A stretch of DNA of 34,537 nucleotides from a virus: positions 108 to 34,644 of the IMG/VR virus record IMGVR_UViG_3300000228_000023; one strand, 5' to 3'. The first letter of the stretch is position 1. The number at the start of each line of letters is the position of its first letter. Both the position numbers and the translations under genes were made by a program. This document shows, piece by piece, positions 8,033 through 31,776 of this stretch. Below the pieces are notes generated by a model that saw only the letters and a program-made list of their open reading frames with translations, searched no databases and had not been told where the DNA came from.

Positions 8033-8162
8033 GCTTGTTTAAAACATCGGTCCAAAATTTAATTTGATTCTTGTTGCCATTAAGCTTTGCCTGTTCAAGG
8101 TTTTGCTTAACATCTTCAAGTGACTCTTTCTTTTTTTTATTTACGCCATTTCTTGCATTCAC
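8013..8162 (-). CDS. Small helical protein, convergent overlap with RusA
   Basis: 49 aa from GTG at 8160-8162, with AGGA about 11 bases upstream. The N-terminal part is basic (VNKKKKES), followed by a coiled-coil-like LEDVKQNLEQAKLNGNKNQ and a WTDVLNKLKNK end. It overlaps the spanin-like lipoprotein gene by 26 bases and the RusA 3' end by 20 bases on the opposite strand. It is the last gene of the late operon that I can see. No terminator separates it from RusA. Confidence 0.55.
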   Translation of the reverse strand: MNARNGVNKKKKESLEDVKQNLEQAKLNGNKNQIKFWTDVLNKLKNKPR

Positions 8163-8418
8163 GAATTAATTCATCCTGATAATTACGTTCGCAGTTGTAG
8201 TCTTCAAGGGTGATGCCTGCTAAATCTTTAGGGTATAGAACGTCTTCTGGGCACAGATAGTTAATTTCATTATCTTCATTGAGCATAAAGATACATGATG
8301 GATTCTCTATCTCCCATAATGGTGGCCTACACTTTCTCTGGATAGGTGGCTTTGGCGCACCCATGGCGCAAGCATTAAGGCTTAGGATCATTGCGACCAA
8401 GGTCACGAAGAATTTCAA
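8137..8418 (-). CDS. Putative outer-membrane lipoprotein (o-spanin-like)
   Basis: 93 aa from TTG at 8416-8418, with AAAGGA six bases upstream. MKFFVTLVAMILSLNAC is a lipoprotein signal peptide with the lipobox L-N-A-C and the modified Cys at 17. A proline-rich stretch (APKPPIQRKCRPP) follows, then an acidic domain with several cysteines. Signal peptide, small size, proline content and overlap with an i-spanin-like gene in another frame match the outer-membrane subunit of two-part spanins. The extra cysteines and length (93 aa against 60 or less for Rz1) are unusual, so another lipoprotein is possible. Confidence 0.6.
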   Translation of the reverse strand: MKFFVTLVAMILSLNACAMGAPKPPIQRKCRPPLWEIENPSCIFMLNEDNEINYLCPEDVLYPKDLAGITLEDYNCERNYQDELIRECKKWRK

Positions 8419-10515: not shown

Positions 10516-13056
10516 TTATCCTATTAGGTTGTTGCCTAGCTCTAGTTCACTATTAGAATCAGGCGTTAGCGTTAAATCGTCAACAATGTACCCATATTTT
10601 GATCGGCTATCGTCGCTAGAAAGCGTATAATCTGGCTCAGAGTCTGGGCAAATTGAGGGAACTCTATTGAAAACATTTCCTAGGTCATTAAAAGTCACCT
10701 CACTGCCAAATCCATCTTTTTTAATTGATGAAATGACTCCGATTTTTCTTCTAGATCTGCCACCATATCTTTTAAAAAGCCTATCTAGGGATATGTAAAG
10801 CTTGTCGTTAACTGATTTGTTGTGTAGGTTTAACTTTGTTTTTACTGTTACTCTACCTAGGGACAATGAGTTAAAAAAAGAAATTCTCTGCGCCATTGTT
10901 AGTGCCGAATCATCTTCATAAAGATATATTTCTCTTGATTCTTTTTTTGAGATTCCGATAATACTATCAACGAATCCAGAGTTAAACCTCTGAACCTCAA
11001 AAGTATCTTCCCCGGATACTAGATCAACAAACGGCCTATACTTTACCTCTGTTTCGTTTGAAATATTGTTAGACGTATCTGATGACCAATCCAAAATATC
11101 ATCATCCTTTAAAAAGCTTCCTAGGTCAGGTTTTTTTGAGTTCAATATAGAAAACGCAATGTTTAAATCAGGGCCTTGGTAAATTGATCCAAAGCAAGAG
11201 TTATTAATCTTTGTTAGAACATCTTTTATTTTTTCGCTTCCGCTTCCGGTATTCGGAGTAATTAAACTAACAGTGTGTTCACATTCTTGATTTGCCTTAG
11301 AGAAGGAATCTATATTTAAAGATGAGAACTCAGCATCATTTTGCAATAAATGTCTGGCCACATCTGAGGGAGTTTTTACCCATGTCTCACCATCTCCAAA
11401 ATCATACCCAAGTCCAATACAGTCAACAGTAATTAAAGAATCATCTTTGATCATTTCAATGTTTTTATAAATTATTGATACCGATCCAGACTCTAGCGAA
11501 GGTGTCCTTAATATAATCTCTTGCTCTTTAACCTCTAGCACTTCGTACCAATTGCTTACGCCTGCCGTGTCTTGTTTTATCCAGTCATTAACAAATACCA
11601 CTTGCCTTAAATCGGTTGTTGCTGATGTTGTGACAGACCTTGAAGACGAGGTAAAAGTGAATGTGTAAGATATGGTTTTAGGTTTAGCAATATTGAACTC
11701 TGCTAAACTATTAAAGACGAGATTACATCTAGATGTTGTATTATCTAACGTATAGTCCCTGTTTAGTATAAATTTTCTTACCCCATCTCTTGCGGCATAA
11801 ATAGGACTCTTTAGTAGAACATCACTATCAACAGGTAACGGAGTGATCGCGCTATCAGTGATAACCTCGTTCCCTGATATTCTTCTTATTACCCCTTGAG
11901 AAGAATTAATAGATATGGAATCACCCACCATTAAGCCGTCAACACTATCTACTTTAAACCTATTAGCATCCAATACGGTTAATATTTCTGCGTTAACTTC
12001 GAAAAGTTTGTGTCCAGATATATTCCAAGTTCTATTTGCCTGTCTATAAGGATTAACAGGAGTCCATTTAAAGGAAACCGAAGAAAAAGACAATTCAAGT
12101 TCTTCGCTGAGTCCTAGCCGAGTATCTGAATTAACAGAGTCAACACCAAATTCGATCTCTTCCCCGTTATCTACAATAGTAATCGTATCCCCAGATGAAA
12201 ATCTGCTTAAAAAACCTGTACCAGTTAGGAACTTATCCCCAAGCACCCCAGAAATAGTCCCATAGTTTTCATACCCTTCAAGTATGGCCGAAACAGACGG
12301 GCATTTCATTTGCTTTACTCTTCCATAGATTCTTCTTTTTGCCGAGTCCATTATACTGTCTTGAACTCGACCGTCATCAGTTGTAAATACTGGCTGGTTC
12401 AAAACACCCTGTAATTTAAATACAAAATCCTTAACCTTAAAATTGACAAAATCATCACCGTAAGACCTTGATTCAATTACTCCTGAGAATATTTTTTTTG
12501 CCTGATTTATGGGAATCTGTGGACCCCATAAATAAAATTCAATCTCTTTATTTTCCCAAGTTAAAACATCATATATGTCGTCAAAATATGAGTCTGAATT
12601 AATTAACTTAACCGACGAACTAGACTCAAGAACAACGCCTGTATTCTCATCATCAAGCTGCTGCCCAAGGCTACCAATTGAGTCCACTAAAGGCTCAAAC
12701 TCGACCATCTCCCCATTGTTTAAATCATATGGGAGAATAACTGGTGCAGTTGAAAAAAAGTGCTGATACGTCAAAACTATTTGCCAATTTCTCGGATCAT
12801 TTAATGCAGCAGTTTTTAAATAAAGCCTCTTTGCTTGAGCATCGAAAAAATACTCTCTCGGAAGCAAAGGAAGGGATTCTTTTTTTACATATGGAAACAA
12901 TTCGTCTTTTACTGAATTAATAAAAAAATCAACATCACGGTAATAGGTAAACCCATCTTCCGTAACTTGAAATATTTTAGCAAACTGAGACGACTTGGCC
13001 TTAACCAGCGTAATCTTTTCGCTTCTGGGATTATTGATAAATTCATCGAAAGTCAT
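10516..13056 (-). CDS. Tail hub / tip protein
   Basis: 846 aa. The ATG at 13054-13056 overlaps the upstream stop as ATGA. The protein is long and beta-rich, without signal peptide or coiled coil. Segments such as KKIFSGVIESRSYGDDFVNF, then KVKDFVFKLQG, resemble the beta-barrel domains of siphovirus hub proteins. Position downstream of the tape measure and the distal-tail-like gene, together with its size, fits the central tip component carrying fibres and contacting the cell. I see no peptidase motif. The call rests on order and composition. Confidence 0.65.
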   Translation of the reverse strand: MTFDEFINNPRSEKITLVKAKSSQFAKIFQVTEDGFTYYRDVDFFINSVKDELFPYVKKESLPLLPREYFFDAQAKRLYLKTAALNDPRNWQIVLTYQHFFSTAPVILPYDLNNGEMVEFEPLVDSIGSLGQQLDDENTGVVLESSSSVKLINSDSYFDDIYDVLTWENKEIEFYLWGPQIPINQAKKIFSGVIESRSYGDDFVNFKVKDFVFKLQGVLNQPVFTTDDGRVQDSIMDSAKRRIYGRVKQMKCPSVSAILEGYENYGTISGVLGDKFLTGTGFLSRFSSGDTITIVDNGEEIEFGVDSVNSDTRLGLSEELELSFSSVSFKWTPVNPYRQANRTWNISGHKLFEVNAEILTVLDANRFKVDSVDGLMVGDSISINSSQGVIRRISGNEVITDSAITPLPVDSDVLLKSPIYAARDGVRKFILNRDYTLDNTTSRCNLVFNSLAEFNIAKPKTISYTFTFTSSSRSVTTSATTDLRQVVFVNDWIKQDTAGVSNWYEVLEVKEQEIILRTPSLESGSVSIIYKNIEMIKDDSLITVDCIGLGYDFGDGETWVKTPSDVARHLLQNDAEFSSLNIDSFSKANQECEHTVSLITPNTGSGSEKIKDVLTKINNSCFGSIYQGPDLNIAFSILNSKKPDLGSFLKDDDILDWSSDTSNNISNETEVKYRPFVDLVSGEDTFEVQRFNSGFVDSIIGISKKESREIYLYEDDSALTMAQRISFFNSLSLGRVTVKTKLNLHNKSVNDKLYISLDRLFKRYGGRSRRKIGVISSIKKDGFGSEVTFNDLGNVFNRVPSICPDSEPDYTLSSDDSRSKYGYIVDDLTLTPDSNSELELGNNLIG

Positions 13057-13346
13057 AGACCTGTCTTTTTATTTAATCCCATTAGGTGATTCTTAATATC
13101 TCTAGTGTCTTCTGACAACGTATGCAGCTTTTCATCAATACTTTTTAGCTGTTGGTTTCTTAGGTTAATCCTAGGCGTAGACCAAACCTCTATCCTATTA
13201 TCCACGTAAGCATCGGCATAAGGAGCCGCCTGCCACCCCATAGAGAACGCACCACCTAAGGCTGTAACCATTACGATCATTAAATAAAAAGTCCATCGTA
13301 TAAACCATGGAGCTTTTTCTAAGATAATGTCGAATATAAATTTCAT
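13053..13346 (-). CDS. Single-pass membrane protein with coiled-coil tail (possible holin or tail-associated protein)
   Basis: 97 aa. An amphipathic start (MKFIFDIILEKAPWFIRW) leads into a hydrophobic helix (FYLMIVMVTALGGAFSMGW, about 21-39), followed by a soluble region with a charged coiled coil (SIDEKLHTLSEDTRDIKNHL). One membrane helix near the N-terminus and a helical C-terminus fit a pinholin, an i-spanin or an inner-membrane anchor. It sits oddly between two tail genes and overlaps the hub gene as ATGA. No holin is seen elsewhere, so it is the best candidate by exclusion. Confidence 0.55.
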   Translation of the reverse strand: MKFIFDIILEKAPWFIRWTFYLMIVMVTALGGAFSMGWQAAPYADAYVDNRIEVWSTPRINLRNQQLKSIDEKLHTLSEDTRDIKNHLMGLNKKTGL

Positions 13347-13367: not shown

Positions 13368-15656
13368 TTAGTAGGTACCTCTACATGAAACAGAAAGTCG
13401 AGTATCTAATGCTCCGTTCGGCGCTGTCACGCTTATGACTAGAGAGCCGCAATTAGTACAAGCTGGCAGCCCGTTTGGTCCGATAAGGGTTGTGTTAGCA
13501 TGAGGACCGAGAGTGCATATCAAAGTTGTGTAAGTTTTTTTAAAGGTTGTCGGATAAGAACCGGTCCCATTCCTTGTGATGCCTGTTACATAATCCCCGA
13601 TTTGGGTGTAAGAGCAGGGAGAAGAAGTACAATTGGTGTTTAAGTTTCCTCCATGGATTACAAATGAAAAATCATCAACTCTCCCACTCGTAGTCCCTTC
13701 AGTTTTGTTGTAGTCCTTAAGTTGAGCAACGATGAAGTTAACCTGAGTCCTTACTGAGTCTGCGCCTTGGCGATCACACTTCACTCTTAGCGGTAAATTG
13801 TTAGGTACGTCCGAAGAGTTAACAACAGGAAATGTCACGCTAGTTGTTGAAGTGGAGCTAGCCGCAAACGAAAATGAGTAAGAACCTCCGGTAACAGCAA
13901 AGCAAACAGGTGTAACAGTAAACTCGCCTGATGTAATATCGCAAACAACCGTAGTTGTTCCCGTACAAGTAGGGGCCCACGATGTCCCAAATGGAACCGC
14001 TGAACTAATTACGTTTGAGGTATCCCTTGAAAACGAAAGCTCTTGAACACAGTCGATCTGATCTTTACACTTATCACTAATATAAGGAGTGGTTGCAGAG
14101 TATTCGTTAACAGGTATTACGGCTTTAAAAGATAGTAAATTTGTTGAAACAAAAACCGCAGAGGCCGTAACCTTAGACAATAGAGAACGAGCGGATTCAC
14201 CTGCCCCAAATGTCACATAGCTCGCACTTGGCTCAACTAATACAGAGTAGCTATAAGAGGAGTTTACCACATTTCTACCAAGTGTTCCTGCAAGCGAAAT
14301 AGTGGGAAGCTGTGAGCTAGTCGTCAGGCCACTCCTTAGACTCACTCTTGCCTCAACTGCCGTAGTTGTACCGCTCTCGAAAGTACAATCAATAACCTCA
14401 TTTGTGCCAACTTGCTGGCCATAACAATCATGAACCGTTACTGTCCCGAATCCCGTGAATGTCGGAGTGTATTTTACTCTAGGCCCAATATTTGGATGAC
14501 TTGTAATATTGTCTTTAATATCTAACTTAAAATCATCGTACCTAACAACGAGTGGCGAAGCCGTCGATTTTTGCCTAACCATCCCACCGATTGAAGTTGT
14601 CCCGACAATGACTGGAATGGCATAAGTATTTTTAGAACCAATAGGCAAGCAGGCTATCTCAACGTCATCAACAAGTGCACAAAATTCTGTATCAATCCCA
14701 CTTGCTTGAGCTTTCACTGAAACTAAAGCAGGGAAACTTTCCATATTGGCGAGAGTATTTTGAGTCTGTGAAACTGAGCAAGCAGTAGATGAGCTACATT
14801 GCATTTTCCCTGTCTTTTTGCCAATACCTAAAAGAAGCGATGCTGTTGTTTCATTTGCAAATGCCCCTGTGCCAGATATTGTATATCCGTCATTGTCGGT
14901 AAGTGCTTCAAAGCCTGAGTTGTAAGCGATATTTGTATTATCACTTTCATTTAAGTATTTACCGGGAGCCGTAGGGGTTAGTTGATTAGACTTAAATTGA
15001 AGCTCTTTCAAAGTTACAGAAGTTAAATCTTCTGCTTTTGCTGAGATGCTTTTATCTTCCCATGTTGGAGCTGATGCTCCATTAGAATTTAAAGTCTGTC
15101 CCGTAGTTCCTGCTCCAAGAATTTCCATCGAACCAGCGTCAGTATAAATAACACCACCTAAAACAGGAGTTAAGTTTTTATCTGTTCCGCCATTCATCAT
15201 AGGAAGAACACCTGTTACGTCGGATGATAAATCAATTGGCAAATCGTTTGATAATATAGTCCAGTTAGCAATATCTGAAGCAAAAACCGTAGAAGTGTGA
15301 GCAGTATTACATTGGTAGATTTTATTAGATTCGACAATAACGTCATTAATAGCGTAATTAAAAGATGTTTCCCAGTTTGAGATACCACCGCCAGCACTTT
15401 TCCAAATTGTTCCATTGTAGATATTGAGCTGATTTGTGTTTGAATTATAAACACATCTTCCGGCCAATGGAGAAGCAATGGTATCTCTCTGTACTTCACT
15501 CATAACAGGACAAGGCTTTGATGCGATTGTGGTAGAATTTACTTCTAGATTACCATTAACCTTAATATCTTTCGAAGTCATAGAGTTAATATTTTGCTGA
15601 GAGTTTGCATTAAGTGAGATGATAAATAATAAAAGTAATAGTAGTAAATTCTTCAT
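13368..15656 (-). CDS. Large secreted tail-fibre-like protein with Sec signal peptide and carbohydrate-binding-like domains
   Basis: 762 aa. The ATG at 15654-15656 overlaps the upstream stop as ATGA. MKNLLLLLLLFIISLNANSQ is a textbook Sec signal peptide. Residues about 55-88 (AGRCVYNSNTNQLNIYNGT, then IWK) match the short linker of many fibres. Residues 92-137 (W...YAINDVIVESNKIYQC...H...W) fit the CBM5/12 chitin-binding pattern. Residues about 240-380 (NSGFEALTDNDGYTISG...YDDFKL) look like a jelly-roll carbohydrate-binding module. The rest is Ser/Thr-rich beta sequence with a Cys-rich C-terminus (CTNCGS near the end). A Sec leader on a virion fibre is unusual, and export to the envelope is implied. 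Host adsorption or surface modification are both possible. Confidence 0.7.
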   Translation of the reverse strand: MKNLLLLLLLFIISLNANSQQNINSMTSKDIKVNGNLEVNSTTIASKPCPVMSEVQRDTIASPLAGRCVYNSNTNQLNIYNGTIWKSAGGGISNWETSFNYAINDVIVESNKIYQCNTAHTSTVFASDIANWTILSNDLPIDLSSDVTGVLPMMNGGTDKNLTPVLGGVIYTDAGSMEILGAGTTGQTLNSNGASAPTWEDKSISAKAEDLTSVTLKELQFKSNQLTPTAPGKYLNESDNTNIAYNSGFEALTDNDGYTISGTGAFANETTASLLLGIGKKTGKMQCSSSTACSVSQTQNTLANMESFPALVSVKAQASGIDTEFCALVDDVEIACLPIGSKNTYAIPVIVGTTSIGGMVRQKSTASPLVVRYDDFKLDIKDNITSHPNIGPRVKYTPTFTGFGTVTVHDCYGQQVGTNEVIDCTFESGTTTAVEARVSLRSGLTTSSQLPTISLAGTLGRNVVNSSYSYSVLVEPSASYVTFGAGESARSLLSKVTASAVFVSTNLLSFKAVIPVNEYSATTPYISDKCKDQIDCVQELSFSRDTSNVISSAVPFGTSWAPTCTGTTTVVCDITSGEFTVTPVCFAVTGGSYSFSFAASSTSTTSVTFPVVNSSDVPNNLPLRVKCDRQGADSVRTQVNFIVAQLKDYNKTEGTTSGRVDDFSFVIHGGNLNTNCTSSPCSYTQIGDYVTGITRNGTGSYPTTFKKTYTTLICTLGPHANTTLIGPNGLPACTNCGSLVISVTAPNGALDTRLSVSCRGTY

Positions 15657-16066
15657 ATGGAAATTCTCACGATAGATAGTTTTAAAGTTGTAGATACGTG
15701 TCCAAAAATGTCGCCTGTCGAGTAAGATACTTGGCCAGAAGAATCAATAAATAATGAAATCATCTCACCACTCGTGATAGTCGGGTTTAGAATATCATCC
15801 CCAGAACTGTTACCTGTAGTTAAGTTCCAGCCTGAGCCATCGTAATATAACTGAATACTAATGGTTTGAGTGAAAACAGATGACCCTATTCTGATTATTT
15901 CAGCATCAATAAAAGCTGACTTATAAAGAAGTGGGTCAAAGATAAAGTCAGTAATGTTCACGCCTGTCCGATTATTTAATAAAACATAGTTTTCTTGCGT
16001 ACCACCGGCCACTGAAGGGGCCGAGGATGAAGTAAATGAATCGTTAAAACTTACTATTCTTGTCAA
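15653..16066 (-). CDS. Small beta-rich tail protein
   Basis: 137 aa, overlapping both neighbours by 4 bases. Ser/Thr- and Ile-rich beta sequence with hydrophilic loops (YDGSGWNLTTGNSSGDD). No motif recognised. Its place between the distal tail and fibre genes suggests a minor tail-tip component. Confidence 0.6.
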   Translation of the reverse strand: MTRIVSFNDSFTSSSAPSVAGGTQENYVLLNNRTGVNITDFIFDPLLYKSAFIDAEIIRIGSSVFTQTISIQLYYDGSGWNLTTGNSSGDDILNPTITSGEMISLFIDSSGQVSYSTGDIFGHVSTTLKLSIVRISI

Positions 16067-16509
16067 AGGATACCTTCTTTAAATTCTTTCACTCTAAACG
16101 CAAGAGAGTTTTGACTATCATCTAATGGTAAATAACTCATCACGTTTTGAACATCTTCAAATTGTTGTATCCATCCAATAAAAGAGGATGCATTAGGTGA
16201 GTATCCAGACGCACTAAGTCTAAGACTGTAACTACCCTTCTCAATTTTTAATGGGGTGAGTGGCATGATCGGAATAAAGGAATGAATGTAATTTGATGTT
16301 GTACCTATCGCTGTCTTGACCTCACTTAACGTAAAGTCTGCGGACATTAATGACTCAGAGTCTTTAATCAACTCAAAAGTAAAAACCCCTGCGCAATTAT
16401 GAAAGTAAATATACGGGGAAATACAGCCAATATGAATGCGCTCACTGGTATCAATTGATACCTCTTGAAGAAGCTCAGTATAAAGAGTTTGAACAAGAAG
16501 GGTGCTCAC
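16063..16509 (-). CDS. Small beta-rich tail protein
   Basis: 148 aa, overlapping its neighbours by 4 bases. The pattern FTFELIKDSESLMSADFTLS, then GSYSLRLSASGYSPNASSFIGW near the C-terminal side, is typical of jelly-roll domains in tail-tip proteins. Function not recognised. Probably a minor tail or fibre-attachment protein. Confidence 0.6.
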   Translation of the reverse strand: MSTLLVQTLYTELLQEVSIDTSERIHIGCISPYIYFHNCAGVFTFELIKDSESLMSADFTLSEVKTAIGTTSNYIHSFIPIMPLTPLKIEKGSYSLRLSASGYSPNASSFIGWIQQFEDVQNVMSYLPLDDSQNSLAFRVKEFKEGIL

Positions 16510-17261
16510 GTAGCCTCTCTCGCAGTAAAGGTTAAATTAAACCTATTAAAGCTTCCGTTTGTAATGGTTGGTACATCGCCTAAGAAAAACATTCCAGAGT
16601 ATCGCCTAAAATCGTCAGACATTACATCACAACCAAGAGACATATAAAACGGCTTAGACTCACCACAATAATCGTATAGTTTATAGAACTCCGCCAGCTG
16701 ATCTTTATTAAGAAGTCTCAACGCTCCAGAAATAGCTTTTTGCCTTAGAATAACATCTGTGAACTTTTGCCCATATCTATTTGTTTTAGATTGTGACAAC
16801 TCATCATATTTATATGTCCAAGAAAAAGAGATGCTTCTTTGAATGTCTAGCTTTTTACCTAGAAAGATATTTGCGATCTCGCAATAACCTAAAGTGGAAG
16901 TCATAACCATTCTACAAAACCTGTAAGAATGAGTGTCAAACTCTTTCAAACCTAGACCTTGGATATCGGAGAAAGTAATAGCCTCTGTTGCCGCTGGTAT
17001 AGACCATTCATTCGTCCCATTAAACTCTAATGTAATAGTCGATACTCCAAACCCTGATCTCTTGTCTGGCACGATGAAAAACGAAGAAACTTCAGATGTT
17101 TCACCAAAGTCAAACACGATACTATCTGAGTTGCTTGTTGATCTATAAACCTTAGATCTTCTATAGTCCTTAATGTTAGAGGTTGGAAACAAAGCGTTGT
17201 TAGAGCTTGTGGTAATGACAGACTGATCTACTAAATTATCAGAATAAAGATTGAAACTCAT
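16506..17261 (-). CDS. Distal tail-like protein with discoidin-like N-terminal half
   Basis: 251 aa, overlapping the tape measure stop by 4 bases. Residues about 15-130 (LFPTSNIKDYRRSKVYRS..., then IVFDFG, FFIVPDKRSG, ITLEFNG) have the discoidin or F5/8C-like layout common in distal tail proteins. The second half ends with a conserved-looking FNLTFTAREAT, as in Dit-like proteins that close a ring at the tail end. First gene after the tape measure, which is the usual place for Dit. Assignment is by order and fold-level similarity. Confidence 0.65.
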   Translation of the reverse strand: MSFNLYSDNLVDQSVITTSSNNALFPTSNIKDYRRSKVYRSTSNSDSIVFDFGETSEVSSFFIVPDKRSGFGVSTITLEFNGTNEWSIPAATEAITFSDIQGLGLKEFDTHSYRFCRMVMTSTLGYCEIANIFLGKKLDIQRSISFSWTYKYDELSQSKTNRYGQKFTDVILRQKAISGALRLLNKDQLAEFYKLYDYCGESKPFYMSLGCDVMSDDFRRYSGMFFLGDVPTITNGSFNRFNLTFTAREAT

Positions 17262-19300
17262 AAAACAAACCCTGCTTTTACTTGATTTCTTACGGCCCTT
17301 GCGATCTCCTTGCCATCCACTTGAATGACAATGTCGCCACCGCCACCGCCATTATTAAGCATATCTATAAGGTTCTTTTGTTGGTCCGCATTTAAAATCA
17401 TTTCCCCGTCCCTGATAGTGGCTTGACGATTATCTGGTCCAACACTCGCCCCATTGGTACCACCAACAACACCCCCTTGCTCGAATTGAACCCCTGAGAT
17501 TTGCGCAATCTGTGAAGCCGAAGCCGCAGCCGCAATACCGGCAAAAGTAAAGCCTAAAGGTGGTCCGCCAATACTTGAACCAAATCTGAATGATGTTGCA
17601 ATAGCTTCTTTCCCAGCAATTGTTGCGTTAACGATAGCTGCAGCCTTTCCGATAGCGGCCAATTCCTTGGATTGCGACGAAGCCAGCGAAGATGCTGTTG
17701 CAAAAAATGATTGTTGATCAGATAATTTTTGATCATTAATTCTTTTTGTTGCATTTAATTCGCTTGCTCCAATGGTTTGAATATCTTTAGTTTTTCTTTC
17801 AAGATAGGCTTTCTGGTCAGCAAGTTCTCTTTGTTGAGCATCCTGAATAAGCTTATTTTTCTCTAGTTGGGCTTGGTATACTGCTTCGTTTTTAGCAAGT
17901 TCAGATTCAGTCAAGATGGCAATATCTTCCTCTGTTCTTTGGCCCAAAATCTCTAGTTGTAATTGTCTATTTTGCTCATCAATAGAGTTCTGTTCCGCTA
18001 CAAGATTACCTTGCAGTGCCAATAGTTCAGCCGCCAAGGTCTCTCTTGCTGATATTGTTTGAGCGTTTGCGTCGTCTTCTGCTGACCCACGGCCATTAGT
18101 AGAGTTAATTATTTCTTGATTTGCTAACTTAACCTTCTCGGAGGCTTCGATAACTTTATCACCAAAAGCTGCTGTACCATCCGATAAAGATCTAAACAGG
18201 TTCTCGTCCGCCGACTTGCTAAAATCATCAATCGCTACTGCTAAATTTCCTTTAAGTGTTTCAGATAGAGAATTTAGAGGGTTTTCAATGTCTTTAAAAG
18301 AGTCCCCTAATATAGGGATCAGTTTTAATAAAGAAAGAGTTGCGTCGTAAGCTATTTTTAAAGGCTCGATCAATGTAAGATTTATTGAAGCGCCAAGAAT
18401 TTCAAAACTATTAATTACAACTTTCGTAACAACTGTGATCCCATCTAGCCCGTCTAAGAATATTTGGGTAGCGGTGATAGCCGCAAACAACCCGTCAGAG
18501 GCCAAGTCTCTGTATGCGCCATTATTATCTGCAATCTCACCAGTTAATTGATTAATAGAATCTTTTGTGGTGTTTATTAGTGCAATATAATCAGTGTTTT
18601 TAACGATCACGTCACCAATCGGCTCAAACAGATCACCATATGAGTTACTTAATGCGGTCACTGCACCAGAGTAAGTGTTGAGTTTTGTTTGAGCAGCGCC
18701 TCCAAATTGGTTACTGAGAGCAGTTAATGTGTTTGCAAATGTTTGTGAGGCACTTGCGGATTGCTCGATCTGAATTCCATATCTAGAGAATGCTGACACG
18801 TTACCATTAGCTGCTTTGCTAACAAGTAAAGACGCAGTATTAAGATCAATATTTAGGGCCGAAGCAAGATCGAGAGTTGCCTGTGTGGCCTGTTTTAACC
18901 CATCTTTATCGAGTTTTGTTAGTGATGTAAGAAGGGCCAATGTATTTAGAGCCGCATCGTCTCCGAAAATAGATGTGTTTTGAAGTTGTGATGCGTAATC
19001 CTGTAAATCTTTAGATGTTTCTTTTGTGAGAACCCCTGCACGAGATAGTGCAGAGTTTAAATTATTAACTGCTACCTCTTGCTCGGCAGCCGCTCTTATT
19101 GAGTCCTTGGCAACATCAATAAGGTCAGTAACCGCACCAGTCAAAGTATCAAATCCCTTGGTGATTAAATTACCACCAAAGACTCCGATCGCTGTTTTTA
19201 AAATCCCTTTAAGTTCATCGCTTTTCTTAATCCCTGAATCGAGGGCCTTATCTAATCCGTTTTTGTTGACGATTAAATCAAAGTCAATTTTTTCTGCCAT
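17258..19300 (-). CDS. Tail tape measure protein
   Basis: 680 aa. GAGGTTTTAG precedes the ATG at 19298-19300. Long Ala/Ser/Leu/Gln-rich helical sequence with an N-terminal KTAIGVFGGNLITKGFDTL, a central coiled coil (about 430-540) and hydrophobic segments, ending NGGGGGDIVIQVDGKEIARA. These are the hallmarks of siphovirus tape measures, which set tail length and enter the host envelope. At about 0.15 nm per residue the tail would be near 100 nm. I see no lysozyme or peptidase domain. It directly follows the frameshifted chaperone pair, as expected. Confidence 0.9.
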   Translation of the reverse strand: MAEKIDFDLIVNKNGLDKALDSGIKKSDELKGILKTAIGVFGGNLITKGFDTLTGAVTDLIDVAKDSIRAAAEQEVAVNNLNSALSRAGVLTKETSKDLQDYASQLQNTSIFGDDAALNTLALLTSLTKLDKDGLKQATQATLDLASALNIDLNTASLLVSKAANGNVSAFSRYGIQIEQSASASQTFANTLTALSNQFGGAAQTKLNTYSGAVTALSNSYGDLFEPIGDVIVKNTDYIALINTTKDSINQLTGEIADNNGAYRDLASDGLFAAITATQIFLDGLDGITVVTKVVINSFEILGASINLTLIEPLKIAYDATLSLLKLIPILGDSFKDIENPLNSLSETLKGNLAVAIDDFSKSADENLFRSLSDGTAAFGDKVIEASEKVKLANQEIINSTNGRGSAEDDANAQTISARETLAAELLALQGNLVAEQNSIDEQNRQLQLEILGQRTEEDIAILTESELAKNEAVYQAQLEKNKLIQDAQQRELADQKAYLERKTKDIQTIGASELNATKRINDQKLSDQQSFFATASSLASSQSKELAAIGKAAAIVNATIAGKEAIATSFRFGSSIGGPPLGFTFAGIAAAASASQIAQISGVQFEQGGVVGGTNGASVGPDNRQATIRDGEMILNADQQKNLIDMLNNGGGGGDIVIQVDGKEIARAVRNQVKAGFVL

Positions 19301-28048: not shown

Positions 28049-29317
28049 TTAAAGCTGAATAGAAGTTGTCTTTTGTCTTTCTTTCTTGAGAGGGTCAATC
28101 GTCCAACAGAGATAGCCTAAAGCATCAGATATATGCGTAAGCATCTTATCCGTTCTCTGATCAAGAGCACCATCTTTCCAACTTACTTTCTCAAGATCGT
28201 TAACAAGCCTTCTGCATGACTCGTCAATAATAATCCTATCGTCTCTTAATAATCTATTAATATTATTCACACGGTCAATAACTAAAGGGTTTCTAGTTGT
28301 CTCAACAGTAAAGCCTGCTTGCCTCAATATCTCGTGATCGGATATACCAGAAGTCTTTCTATTTGCGCCCGTTGAGTCAGGGTAGATAGATGCTCCTGCG
28401 TGCCCTGCGCTTAGTAACTGCCCAGACATTTTGAATGTGTCAGAGTTTTCCAAGAAAACTTCTGCATAAATATAGAAAATGTTATTGATTACAGTGGCGA
28501 CAACTGCAGTCATTGGTTGGACGTTGAAATCCATACCAATCCTAACCTGTCCAAAAATGATACTTCTATCTATCTTTTGGACGTGCTTCTCTCTACTGAA
28601 TGAGTAATACACTTGACCGTCATCATCTTCTGAGAACTGCCCGTCCCTAAATCTCTTTCTTTGCGCCTCGGGCAAGTTGTTTAAAATCTCTGTTATATAC
28701 TCTGGGTCAATGTTATCTAGATTGTCTTTAGGGTTCATTAATATTGACGCATACCTACATGAATCAACCGGCACGTTATCGACTGGGTCGAGATACTTCT
28801 CAAACAACCAATAGCTCCAATGCTTTTTAGATGGCGGGTTCTGGTCAAAATAGGCTTTCTTAACGAGTTCATTCTTTTCAGCAAGGCGAGTCATTGCGAC
28901 CTGAATTGATTTGTATGGAATTTGAGAACACTCATTAAAATATATTGTTGAGTATTCCTTTCCTAAAATCTTCTCTACTCTTTTGTCATCATCTAACCCC
29001 CCGACCCATAACTCTGATCCGTTAGGGAAGTTAATGCAGTAATCCGTCTTATTCCATCCAACTACCAAGTCAGGAAAGGCAATCTTTAACACTTTTGGTA
29101 GAGTGTCCATCCAGATAGATGTTTTAATGTGATTAAAGTTTAGCCTAAGAATACAGTGTCTAGACTTTGTTTTACAGGCCCTCACAATGATTGCGTAAAC
29201 TGCTATAAAGGTCTTGCCAGACCTTGATCCACCGAACAGCATTACATATCTAGCTATACCAGCAAGAAGGATAATTGCCCTTATTTGAATTAATGTCTTT
29301 TTAAAGACGTGAGTCAT
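28049..29317 (-). CDS. terL: Terminase large subunit
   Basis: 422 aa from ATG 29315-29317 (MTHVFKK). A longer frame to 29371 runs over the small-subunit gene and is less likely. ATPase motifs: Walker A GGSRSGKT (29-36) and a Walker B region YSTIYFNECSQ. Nuclease motifs: IGMDFNVQPM (first Asp), YPDSTGANRKTSG (middle Asp) and HISDALGYLCW (last Asp), so the RNase-H-like domain is complete. The enzyme pumps and cuts concatemeric DNA into the procapsid. Its start overlaps the small-subunit gene by 17 bases. Confidence 0.95.
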   Translation of the reverse strand: MTHVFKKTLIQIRAIILLAGIARYVMLFGGSRSGKTFIAVYAIIVRACKTKSRHCILRLNFNHIKTSIWMDTLPKVLKIAFPDLVVGWNKTDYCINFPNGSELWVGGLDDDKRVEKILGKEYSTIYFNECSQIPYKSIQVAMTRLAEKNELVKKAYFDQNPPSKKHWSYWLFEKYLDPVDNVPVDSCRYASILMNPKDNLDNIDPEYITEILNNLPEAQRKRFRDGQFSEDDDGQVYYSFSREKHVQKIDRSIIFGQVRIGMDFNVQPMTAVVATVINNIFYIYAEVFLENSDTFKMSGQLLSAGHAGASIYPDSTGANRKTSGISDHEILRQAGFTVETTRNPLVIDRVNNINRLLRDDRIIIDESCRRLVNDLEKVSWKDGALDQRTDKMLTHISDALGYLCWTIDPLKKERQKTTSIQL

Positions 29318-29720
29318 CTGAGTCGATATTGATTGAAATCTTCTTAAGGTCGTCAGATAGGTCATACTCAACTTTGTCTTTAAAGTCGGTCACATTAATT
29401 GCCACGAACTTAGCAAAGCCAGCGTTATAGTTATTATTTAAACCGTGCTCAACAATGAACTCCTTTTGAATATCCTTACAAGCGGTGTAAGCACTCAAAA
29501 ACTCAGGGTGAACTAGCCCCCAGTTTCTCAAAGTGTTATGTGTAACACCGATATTTACTGCAAAGCGTTCAAACGTAGGCATTGAGTTTGACTTAAGTTT
29601 CTTTACCTGAACAACTCTTCCCCCTGATGCGACATCCTCAATGACCTCTTTATATAAAGGAACATTAAAATGATCCATTAGTTTTTTTGGCATCTCGTCT
29701 GTATAGTCAGTAGGTCTCAT
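29301..29720 (-). CDS. terS: Terminase small subunit
   Basis: 139 aa. The ATG at 29718-29720 overlaps the upstream stop as ATGA. FERFAVNIGVTHNTLRNWGL looks like a DNA-binding helix-turn-helix, followed by YTACKDIQKEFIVEHGLNNN and a KFVAINVTDFKDKVEYDLSD ending. The order helix-turn-helix, helical oligomerisation region, then acidic tail just before terL is standard for small subunits that recognise the packaging site. Confidence 0.85.
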   Translation of the reverse strand: MRPTDYTDEMPKKLMDHFNVPLYKEVIEDVASGGRVVQVKKLKSNSMPTFERFAVNIGVTHNTLRNWGLVHPEFLSAYTACKDIQKEFIVEHGLNNNYNAGFAKFVAINVTDFKDKVEYDLSDDLKKISINIDSDDSRL

Positions 29721-31110: not shown

Positions 31111-31776
31111 TTATTGTGTTTCTATTCTTCTGGTTGAGTAACAAACGCTAATGTGTCCATCTACTTCAAAAGTGTTTTTGCATCTCTGGCAATTAATCTC
31201 TTCACTATCTGATTCACTATATTTATGGGCATCATAGCTATCCATTTCTAGGCCACAAAAAGGGCAGGTGAGCTCGTCTTTATGCCAATAATCATCCTCG
31301 TCATATTCGGGCATATTATCTAGAGCTTTTTTAAGTTCCTCAGCATCTTCTCTTTCTTTACAATCATTACAGGCCCAACCTTCTTTTCTTCCCCAGCAAA
31401 TACTCTTGTTGTCTTTACTGGAGATTCCACAAACTGAACAAACATCATGTTTTTCGCAAACGGAGTAACCCATCCAGTCTCTTTTGCTTCCGCTGCATTC
31501 ATAACACCCATTAACCCAATACCATTCACCATCGATAAATTCTGCGTAGTACTGCTTCTCAGTATGCTTTAGAATTACATCTGCGTTTTCTTCCTTGGTA
31601 AATTCTCGATCACCATAGTCACGACGAAATAATTGAGTTGAGCCAGATCGAACACTATCCATATCTGATGTAAGGCGTGGATCATTTATTTTCTCAAAGA
31701 TTAGATTTTTATATCCGTGCGAATCTAGGATATAGCCTTTATCGAGATGTGCTTCTTTGTAGTAATGCTTAATCAT
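31111..31776 (-). CDS. Multi-zinc-finger protein
   Basis: 221 aa, starting in an ATGA overlap. At least four Cys pairs: CYEC, CSVC with a following C, CNDC, CPFC and CQRC, the last two making a C-terminal ribbon of the kind LTCPFCGLEMD...INCQRCKNTFEV, ending near VCYSTRRIE. The Y-S-T-x-R/K end is common in small phage zinc-ribbon proteins. The first 100 residues are mixed and unassigned. A role in binding nucleic acid or host proteins is likely, but no specific function can be claimed. Confidence 0.65.
   Translation of the reverse strand: MIKHYYKEAHLDKGYILDSHGYKNLIFEKINDPRLTSDMDSVRSGSTQLFRRDYGDREFTKEENADVILKHTEKQYYAEFIDGEWYWVNGCYECSGSKRDWMGYSVCEKHDVCSVCGISSKDNKSICWGRKEGWACNDCKEREDAEELKKALDNMPEYDEDDYWHKDELTCPFCGLEMDSYDAHKYSESDSEEINCQRCKNTFEVDGHISVCYSTRRIETQ

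Follow-up and report, generated by a model that had tools for sequence, protein, structure and literature searches.

The locus and its gene order

The window discussed here is a stretch of 34,537 nucleotides that forms part of a 34,644-base virus record (IMG/VR IMGVR_UViG_3300000228_000023, positions 108 to 34,644). Within its tail block the genes are arranged in the order tape measure, 251 aa, 148 aa, 137 aa, fibre, 97 aa and 846 aa. The fibre gene, which starts with ATG and encodes a protein of 762 residues, is the main subject of this article, and its modules are listed below with the neighbouring genes, all coordinates being those of the window.

17258..19300 (-): tape measure protein (phrog_9483, E=1.8e-24)
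16506..17261 (-): 251-aa tail protein, the anchor for finding syntenic phages
16063..16509 (-): 148-aa protein of the tail region, its place in the gene order conserved
15653..16066 (-): leaderless 137-aa adaptor domain, with a 4-bp overlap with the fibre gene
13368..15656 (-): gene of the putatively exported fibre, 762 aa with 21 Cys
15600..15656 (-): residues 1-19, the predicted Sec signal peptide; cleavage is expected at ANS/QQ, or at LNA/NS, the latter being the top score of the rule
15381..15599 (-): residues 20-92, the base module (SKPCPxM...QR...SP..G.C.YN...L..YNG..W), which contains the Cys pair 49/68 and is 44-67% identical to siphovirus-type relatives
15246..15380 (-): CBM5/12-like module, residues 93-137 (Pfam CBM_5_12)
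14922..15245 (-): stalk-like segment, residues 138-245; 47-53% identity to relatives
14517..14921 (-): variable beta-rich segment, residues 246-380, originally predicted as a jelly-roll region; 21-30% identity, low-confidence model
14097..14489 (-): residues 390-520, a further variable beta-rich segment that contains Cys 411 and 424
13371..14087 (-): residues 524-762, the Cys-rich tip, which seems to consist of two related domains; the tip model resembles phage tail fibres
10516..13056 (-): 846-aa tail-tip-like protein (phrog_1980, E=3.5e-6), found after the fibre block in relatives that reach that far

Separating the fibre from the 846-aa gene is a 97-aa protein (13053-13346, minus strand) that has one strong transmembrane segment and a weak match to an Rz-like spanin profile (E=0.023), and that is possibly a holin or an inner spanin. 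Elsewhere in the window, the terminase reading frame (28049-29371, minus strand) owes an oddly hydrophobic N-terminus to an upstream TTG start and probably begins further in, and a leaderless 221-aa protein (31111-31776, minus strand) with 13 Cys (5.9%) matches phrog_27543 (E=3.6e-23) and is probably metal-binding.

The signal peptide and its conservation

The fibre opens with MKNLLLLLLLFIISLNANS/QQ, where the slash marks the predicted cleavage site, and this leader has by sequence the features of a strong Sec signal peptide. Leaders were called with a simple n/h/(-3,-1) rule devised for this analysis, under which 2 of the 52 window genes pass, namely the fibre and the gene at 8137-8418. The best N-terminal 11-mer hydropathy of the fibre, at 3.42, is the highest among all window genes. 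The gene at 8137-8418 (minus strand), near the end of the late block, encodes a 93-aa protein with a lipoprotein-like leader (MKFFVTLVAMILSLNAC) and 6 Cys, and is likely an outer-membrane spanin. Within the fibre family a leader is present in all 17 distinct proteins that have an intact N-terminus (the window protein and 16 relatives, identical contigs being counted once), as against 5.7% of shuffled N-termini. The original prediction of a Sec leader on this tail-block protein is thereby confirmed.

In L005/L007 a homologue with the same gene order, found by a short query, is 56% identical to the window protein over 279 aa, and its N-terminus, MKIILFISCLVAFLFMGEAMA/QQNIN, can be set against MKNLLLLLLLFIISLNANS/QQNIN of the window, the identity setting in exactly at the predicted mature start. 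Identity to the leader of the window protein is 21-47%, against 44-67% for the base, and despite this drift the cleavage zone persists, the n-h-c layout and a small residue at -1 being kept in 17/17. This combination of a drifting sequence with a persistent layout and cleavage zone argues that the leader is under selection. That the drifting leaders keep a cleavable c-region right before the conserved mature start also makes a mere hydrophobic start unlikely.

As start codons were predicted from sequence only, the leader might in principle reflect a mis-called start, or a chance hydrophobic stretch, on an otherwise ordinary fibre. In every one of the seven siphovirus-type loci (the window, L007, L017, L018, L019, L030 and L041), however, the start of the gene shares 4 bp with the upstream gene, which argues that the start codon is not mis-called, and the leaders are conserved across phages of different morphology. 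An artefact of this kind is thus very improbable.

Cysteines of the fibre

Cysteine accounts for 21 of the 742 residues of the mature fibre (2.8%), whereas the other late proteins have 0.66% (p=8e-7, Fisher test). In the tip, Cys 585, 627, 714 and 758 (window numbering) are invariant in 12/12 aligned tips, whose mean pairwise identity is about 31%, and further frequent cysteine columns of these tips lie near 530/536 and 562/572. The base Cys pair 49/68 is present in all SKPCP members, although the patterns of the base-module scan included the base cysteines, such that their presence in members found in this way is not independent. A leaderless cyanophage protein shares this base module but has no such pair, which is likewise missing from the module in the leaderless matches L006, L008-L012 and L015. 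An oxidising compartment would suit the tip cysteines as the place of folding, and the cysteine pattern of the fibre is compatible with disulfides, as expected of a Sec-exported protein. The conservation of both the leader and the cysteine pairs strongly supports export: the infected bacterium probably exports the fibre via Sec, and from the sequences we infer with high confidence Sec export, cleavage of the leader and formation of disulfides.

The alternative is that the hydrophobic N-terminus stays uncleaved, as a membrane anchor or as a segment buried on virion assembly, with the fibre being assembled in the cytoplasm as are other fibres. A Ser as the -1 residue of the window protein, and a weak likely site in L018, would suit this explanation. 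Yet the n-h-c layout and small -1 residue of all the members speak against it, as does the Gln that comes next in most siphovirus-type members, and the enrichment of cysteine together with invariant Cys pairs is hard to explain in a reducing cytoplasm. Retention of the leader is consequently improbable.

Modular organisation and fold

Along the mature protein, identity to siphovirus-type relatives falls from base to tip. By segment the base (residues 20-245) is 36-80% identical, mostly 44-67%, which is similar to the neighbouring tail genes, and residues 246-762 are 21-33% identical, with 22-33% for the tip. A constant base combined with carbohydrate-binding-like and tip domains that vary, as this sequence comparison shows them, is the layout of phage receptor-binding proteins. 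Among viral models, the weak tip model (pLDDT 59.7) matches phage tail fibres best (E=2.6e-5), and a PDB fold search with it returned nothing under E=0.001. The pattern of base and tip conservation, in combination with these structural matches of the tip, supports the earlier description of the protein as tail-fibre-like, and that it acts as an adhesin can be held with moderate confidence.

A chitin-binding-like segment had been proposed at residues 92-137. In the window protein CBM_5_12 matches residues 94-124 (E=0.0025) with 18.2 bits, under the Pfam cut-off of 26.2, but three relatives exceed the cut-off (L018 with 32.0, L028 with 29.4 and L041 with 27.5), which supports the call at the level of the family. 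PDB sequence searches gave weak chitinase-module matches only. Residues 240-380, described as a jelly-roll, are beta-rich by prediction, but the full-length AlphaFold model of the fibre is unusable (pLDDT 36.6) and the specific fold is unsupported.

Distribution of the fibre among uncultured phages

The same arrangement is found in at least 16 related uncultured viruses, counted as distinct proteins with intact N-termini. A scan with the 251-aa neighbour led to more syntenic phages, in which the fibre slot holds a leader-bearing protein wherever the locus reaches far enough, the complete fibres being 763-1001 aa long with 19-21 Cys. Further members were added by a base-module scan and by a tip scan, the leader being absent from the search patterns of both. 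L006 and L008-L015, considered as N-terminal homologues, were rejected, the common part being one short module. No isolate phage in the collection was found to encode the fibre family, either by family searches or by single-module searches, and a search of plasmids gave one weak match only.

Every siphovirus-type locus that reaches that far contains the fibre, which overlaps the upstream gene. Its presence in each syntenic relative that extends to it makes the fibre a core gene. An optional moron or lysogenic conversion gene was considered and rejected on the basis of this constant presence, the upstream overlap and the lack of any excess of promoter-like sites near the fibre gene. The family also crosses tail types, occurring in siphovirus-, podovirus- and myovirus-like settings, where morphology is inferred from neighbour genes. 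In L028 and L035 the fibre lies directly downstream of a leaderless tail-fibre gene that matches many tail-fibre profiles, and in L051 it comes after one gene that is baseplate-like and another that encodes a short leaderless fibre.

Two kinds of gene recur on the downstream side. A second leader-bearing, Cys-containing protein comes next after the fibre at L017:12689-13285, L051:10565-11308 and L028:11061-11843, the last with an IPT/TIG-looking repeat. A leaderless protein of 160-209 aa (MKKLLVK...EEVNKQKAIDAK), absent from the window, lies directly downstream of the fibre in many relatives (L018:14595-15212, L019:9869-10456, L041:9891-10367, L042:2383-3012 and L045:1478-2002), and could be a partner or chaperone of the fibre.

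A leaderless adaptor upstream of the fibre

Directly upstream of the exported fibre a 137-aa domain recurs, which has a small gene to itself in L029 and the siphovirus-type phages. In other members it forms the C-terminus of a larger upstream gene, as in L028 (hhalign 99.5%), L036 (91.2%, E=9.9e-7) and, weakly, L035. In the podovirus-like L028 the adaptor domain is fused to a tail-fibre N-terminus, in a gene that matches tail-fibre profiles. Profile searches of whole records found the adaptor in L028, L029, L035 and L036, each time in the gene upstream of the fibre, and did not find it in the records of L034, L044, L046, L049, L050 and L051. The idea of an adaptor in every member was dropped, L034 and the members with other than SKPCP bases being without one. 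What is seen is a linkage, in that the adaptor accompanies the SKPCP base in 5/6 independent contexts as against 0/4 with other bases (one-sided p=0.024, on small numbers). Inheritance as a gene block, rather than contact between the two proteins, could also explain this linkage.

Indications of the host

Shine-Dalgarno motifs are found before 28 of 43 window genes, where 13-23% would be expected; Bacteroidota are not known to have such motifs. A Bacteroidota host, considered in view of the Gln at +1 (the Q-rule, PMC10367356), is thus disfavoured by the Shine-Dalgarno frequency. The motifs, together with the leader and the lipoprotein-like gene, suggest a diderm host that uses Shine-Dalgarno initiation. 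In about ten members the mature protein, as predicted, has Gln at +1 although the phage uses Shine-Dalgarno motifs, and this residue may reflect a host group not yet suspected or a function of the N-terminus as pyroglutamate. Two scans of genome contigs for the host, the second with weak patterns, returned no relative. A Bdellovibrio-like host, expected at first on account of similar motifs, is not proposed here, and the earlier idea that the protein alters predation is unsupported.

What would an exported fibre be for?

The recurrence of a leader-bearing fibre is unexplained by normal phage assembly. The original prediction took virion proteins to be normally without Sec leaders; this has exceptions, since signal peptides are reported on the major capsid proteins of Porphyromonas phages (PMC10367356). 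The question then becomes whether the fibre ends up on the virion or elsewhere.

One answer is that the protein is an exported adhesin that is not part of the virion but borrows fibre modules, displayed on the host surface or freed at lysis, where it might mask receptors against loss of progeny on debris, exclude other phages or change host adhesion. The conservation of leader and cysteines fits such a role equally well. There are also parallels, which could serve as models, in lambda Lom, a signal-peptide protein whose gene lies between tail genes (PMC12309495), and in the phage-like fibres with a signal peptide on the Bdellovibrio surface (PMC10769870). The second leader-bearing Cys protein beside the fibre in L028, L017 and L051 is in keeping with it too. 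Against this, the gene is core and translationally coupled within the tail operon, unlike the variable presence of a moron, and promoter-like sites are not in excess nearby; most members have no lipobox, no anchor was found, and the base is linked to a tail adaptor. A role away from the virion is nevertheless a serious possibility, if one with somewhat less than an even chance of being right.

The answer that we favour, though we would put it slightly short of even, is that an exported receptor-binding fibre docks onto virions after lysis. Three features favour it: within the tail operon the gene is core, it is translationally coupled, and the base of its product tracks a leaderless tail adaptor. 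Late in infection the fibre would be translated together with the tail genes, pass through Sec and be cut just before Gln-Gln. It would then fold in the oxidising periplasm, with disulfides forming in both base and tip. On lysis the soluble fibre would dock via its base onto the leaderless domain that the tail carries as an adaptor, thereby completing the adsorption apparatus of the virion. Such export would open to the phage the use of tips that are stabilised by disulfides and cannot be made in the cytoplasm. Of the two earlier suggestions, assembly of a fibre across the envelope agrees best with the linkage to the adaptor, once modified so that the exported fibre would meet the tail after lysis. 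Docking in L034, L044, L046, L049/L050 and L051, which are without the adaptor, would need other partners. A point against docking is that a large fibre must remain soluble in the periplasm or exit with lysis. Among open-licence papers, to which the literature search was limited, no paper was found on a Sec-exported core tail fibre and no precedent for a Sec-exported tailed-phage fibre that later joins the virion.

The wider proposition is that uncultured phages of several tail types, as a widespread group, split their fibre into a cytoplasmic adaptor and a Sec-exported, disulfide-bonded distal part, with the virion being completed only once lysis has let the two compartments mix; this is conceivable, and is to be held more loosely than either of the two answers above. 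If true, it would run counter to the rule that places the completion of tailed virions in the cytoplasm, give phages access to disulfide-stabilised binding domains and provide a simple signature for a group of uncultured phages, namely an exported Cys-rich fibre that comes after a leaderless adaptor. Even a host-surface protein would represent an exported adhesin that is core, not accessory, within a phage tail operon.

Comparison with known systems

The protein resembles phage tail fibres in its position in the tail operon, its conserved base and variable tip, its CBM-like module and perhaps, on the weak model, the fold of its tip. Canonical tail fibres, in contrast, have no Sec leader and few cysteines, whereas here both leader and cysteines are conserved. 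With lambda Lom (PMC12309495) it shares a signal peptide and a coding position among tail genes, but Lom is an outer-membrane beta-barrel and the fibre has no Pfam match of that kind, CBM_5_12 being the only one. Phages of Porphyromonas gingivalis encode proteins of unknown function that likewise have signal peptides, several with Gln at +1 (PMC10367356); they are not described as fibres, and their host group is disfavoured here by the Shine-Dalgarno motifs. A leader followed by a mosaic, phage-fibre-like adhesin with swapped tips is shared with the mosaic adhesive trimer (MAT) fibres of Bdellovibrio bacteriovorus, a superfamily with a conserved beta-rich N-terminal domain of ~130 aa after the signal peptide (PMC10769870). 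A C-terminal S74 peptidase is found in 13/21 MAT members, and MATs without it exist (PMC10769870); S74 (PF13884) is absent from the window record. Unlike the chromosomally encoded MAT fibres, the protein described here is the product of a phage core gene, which lies in a tail operon within a virus record.
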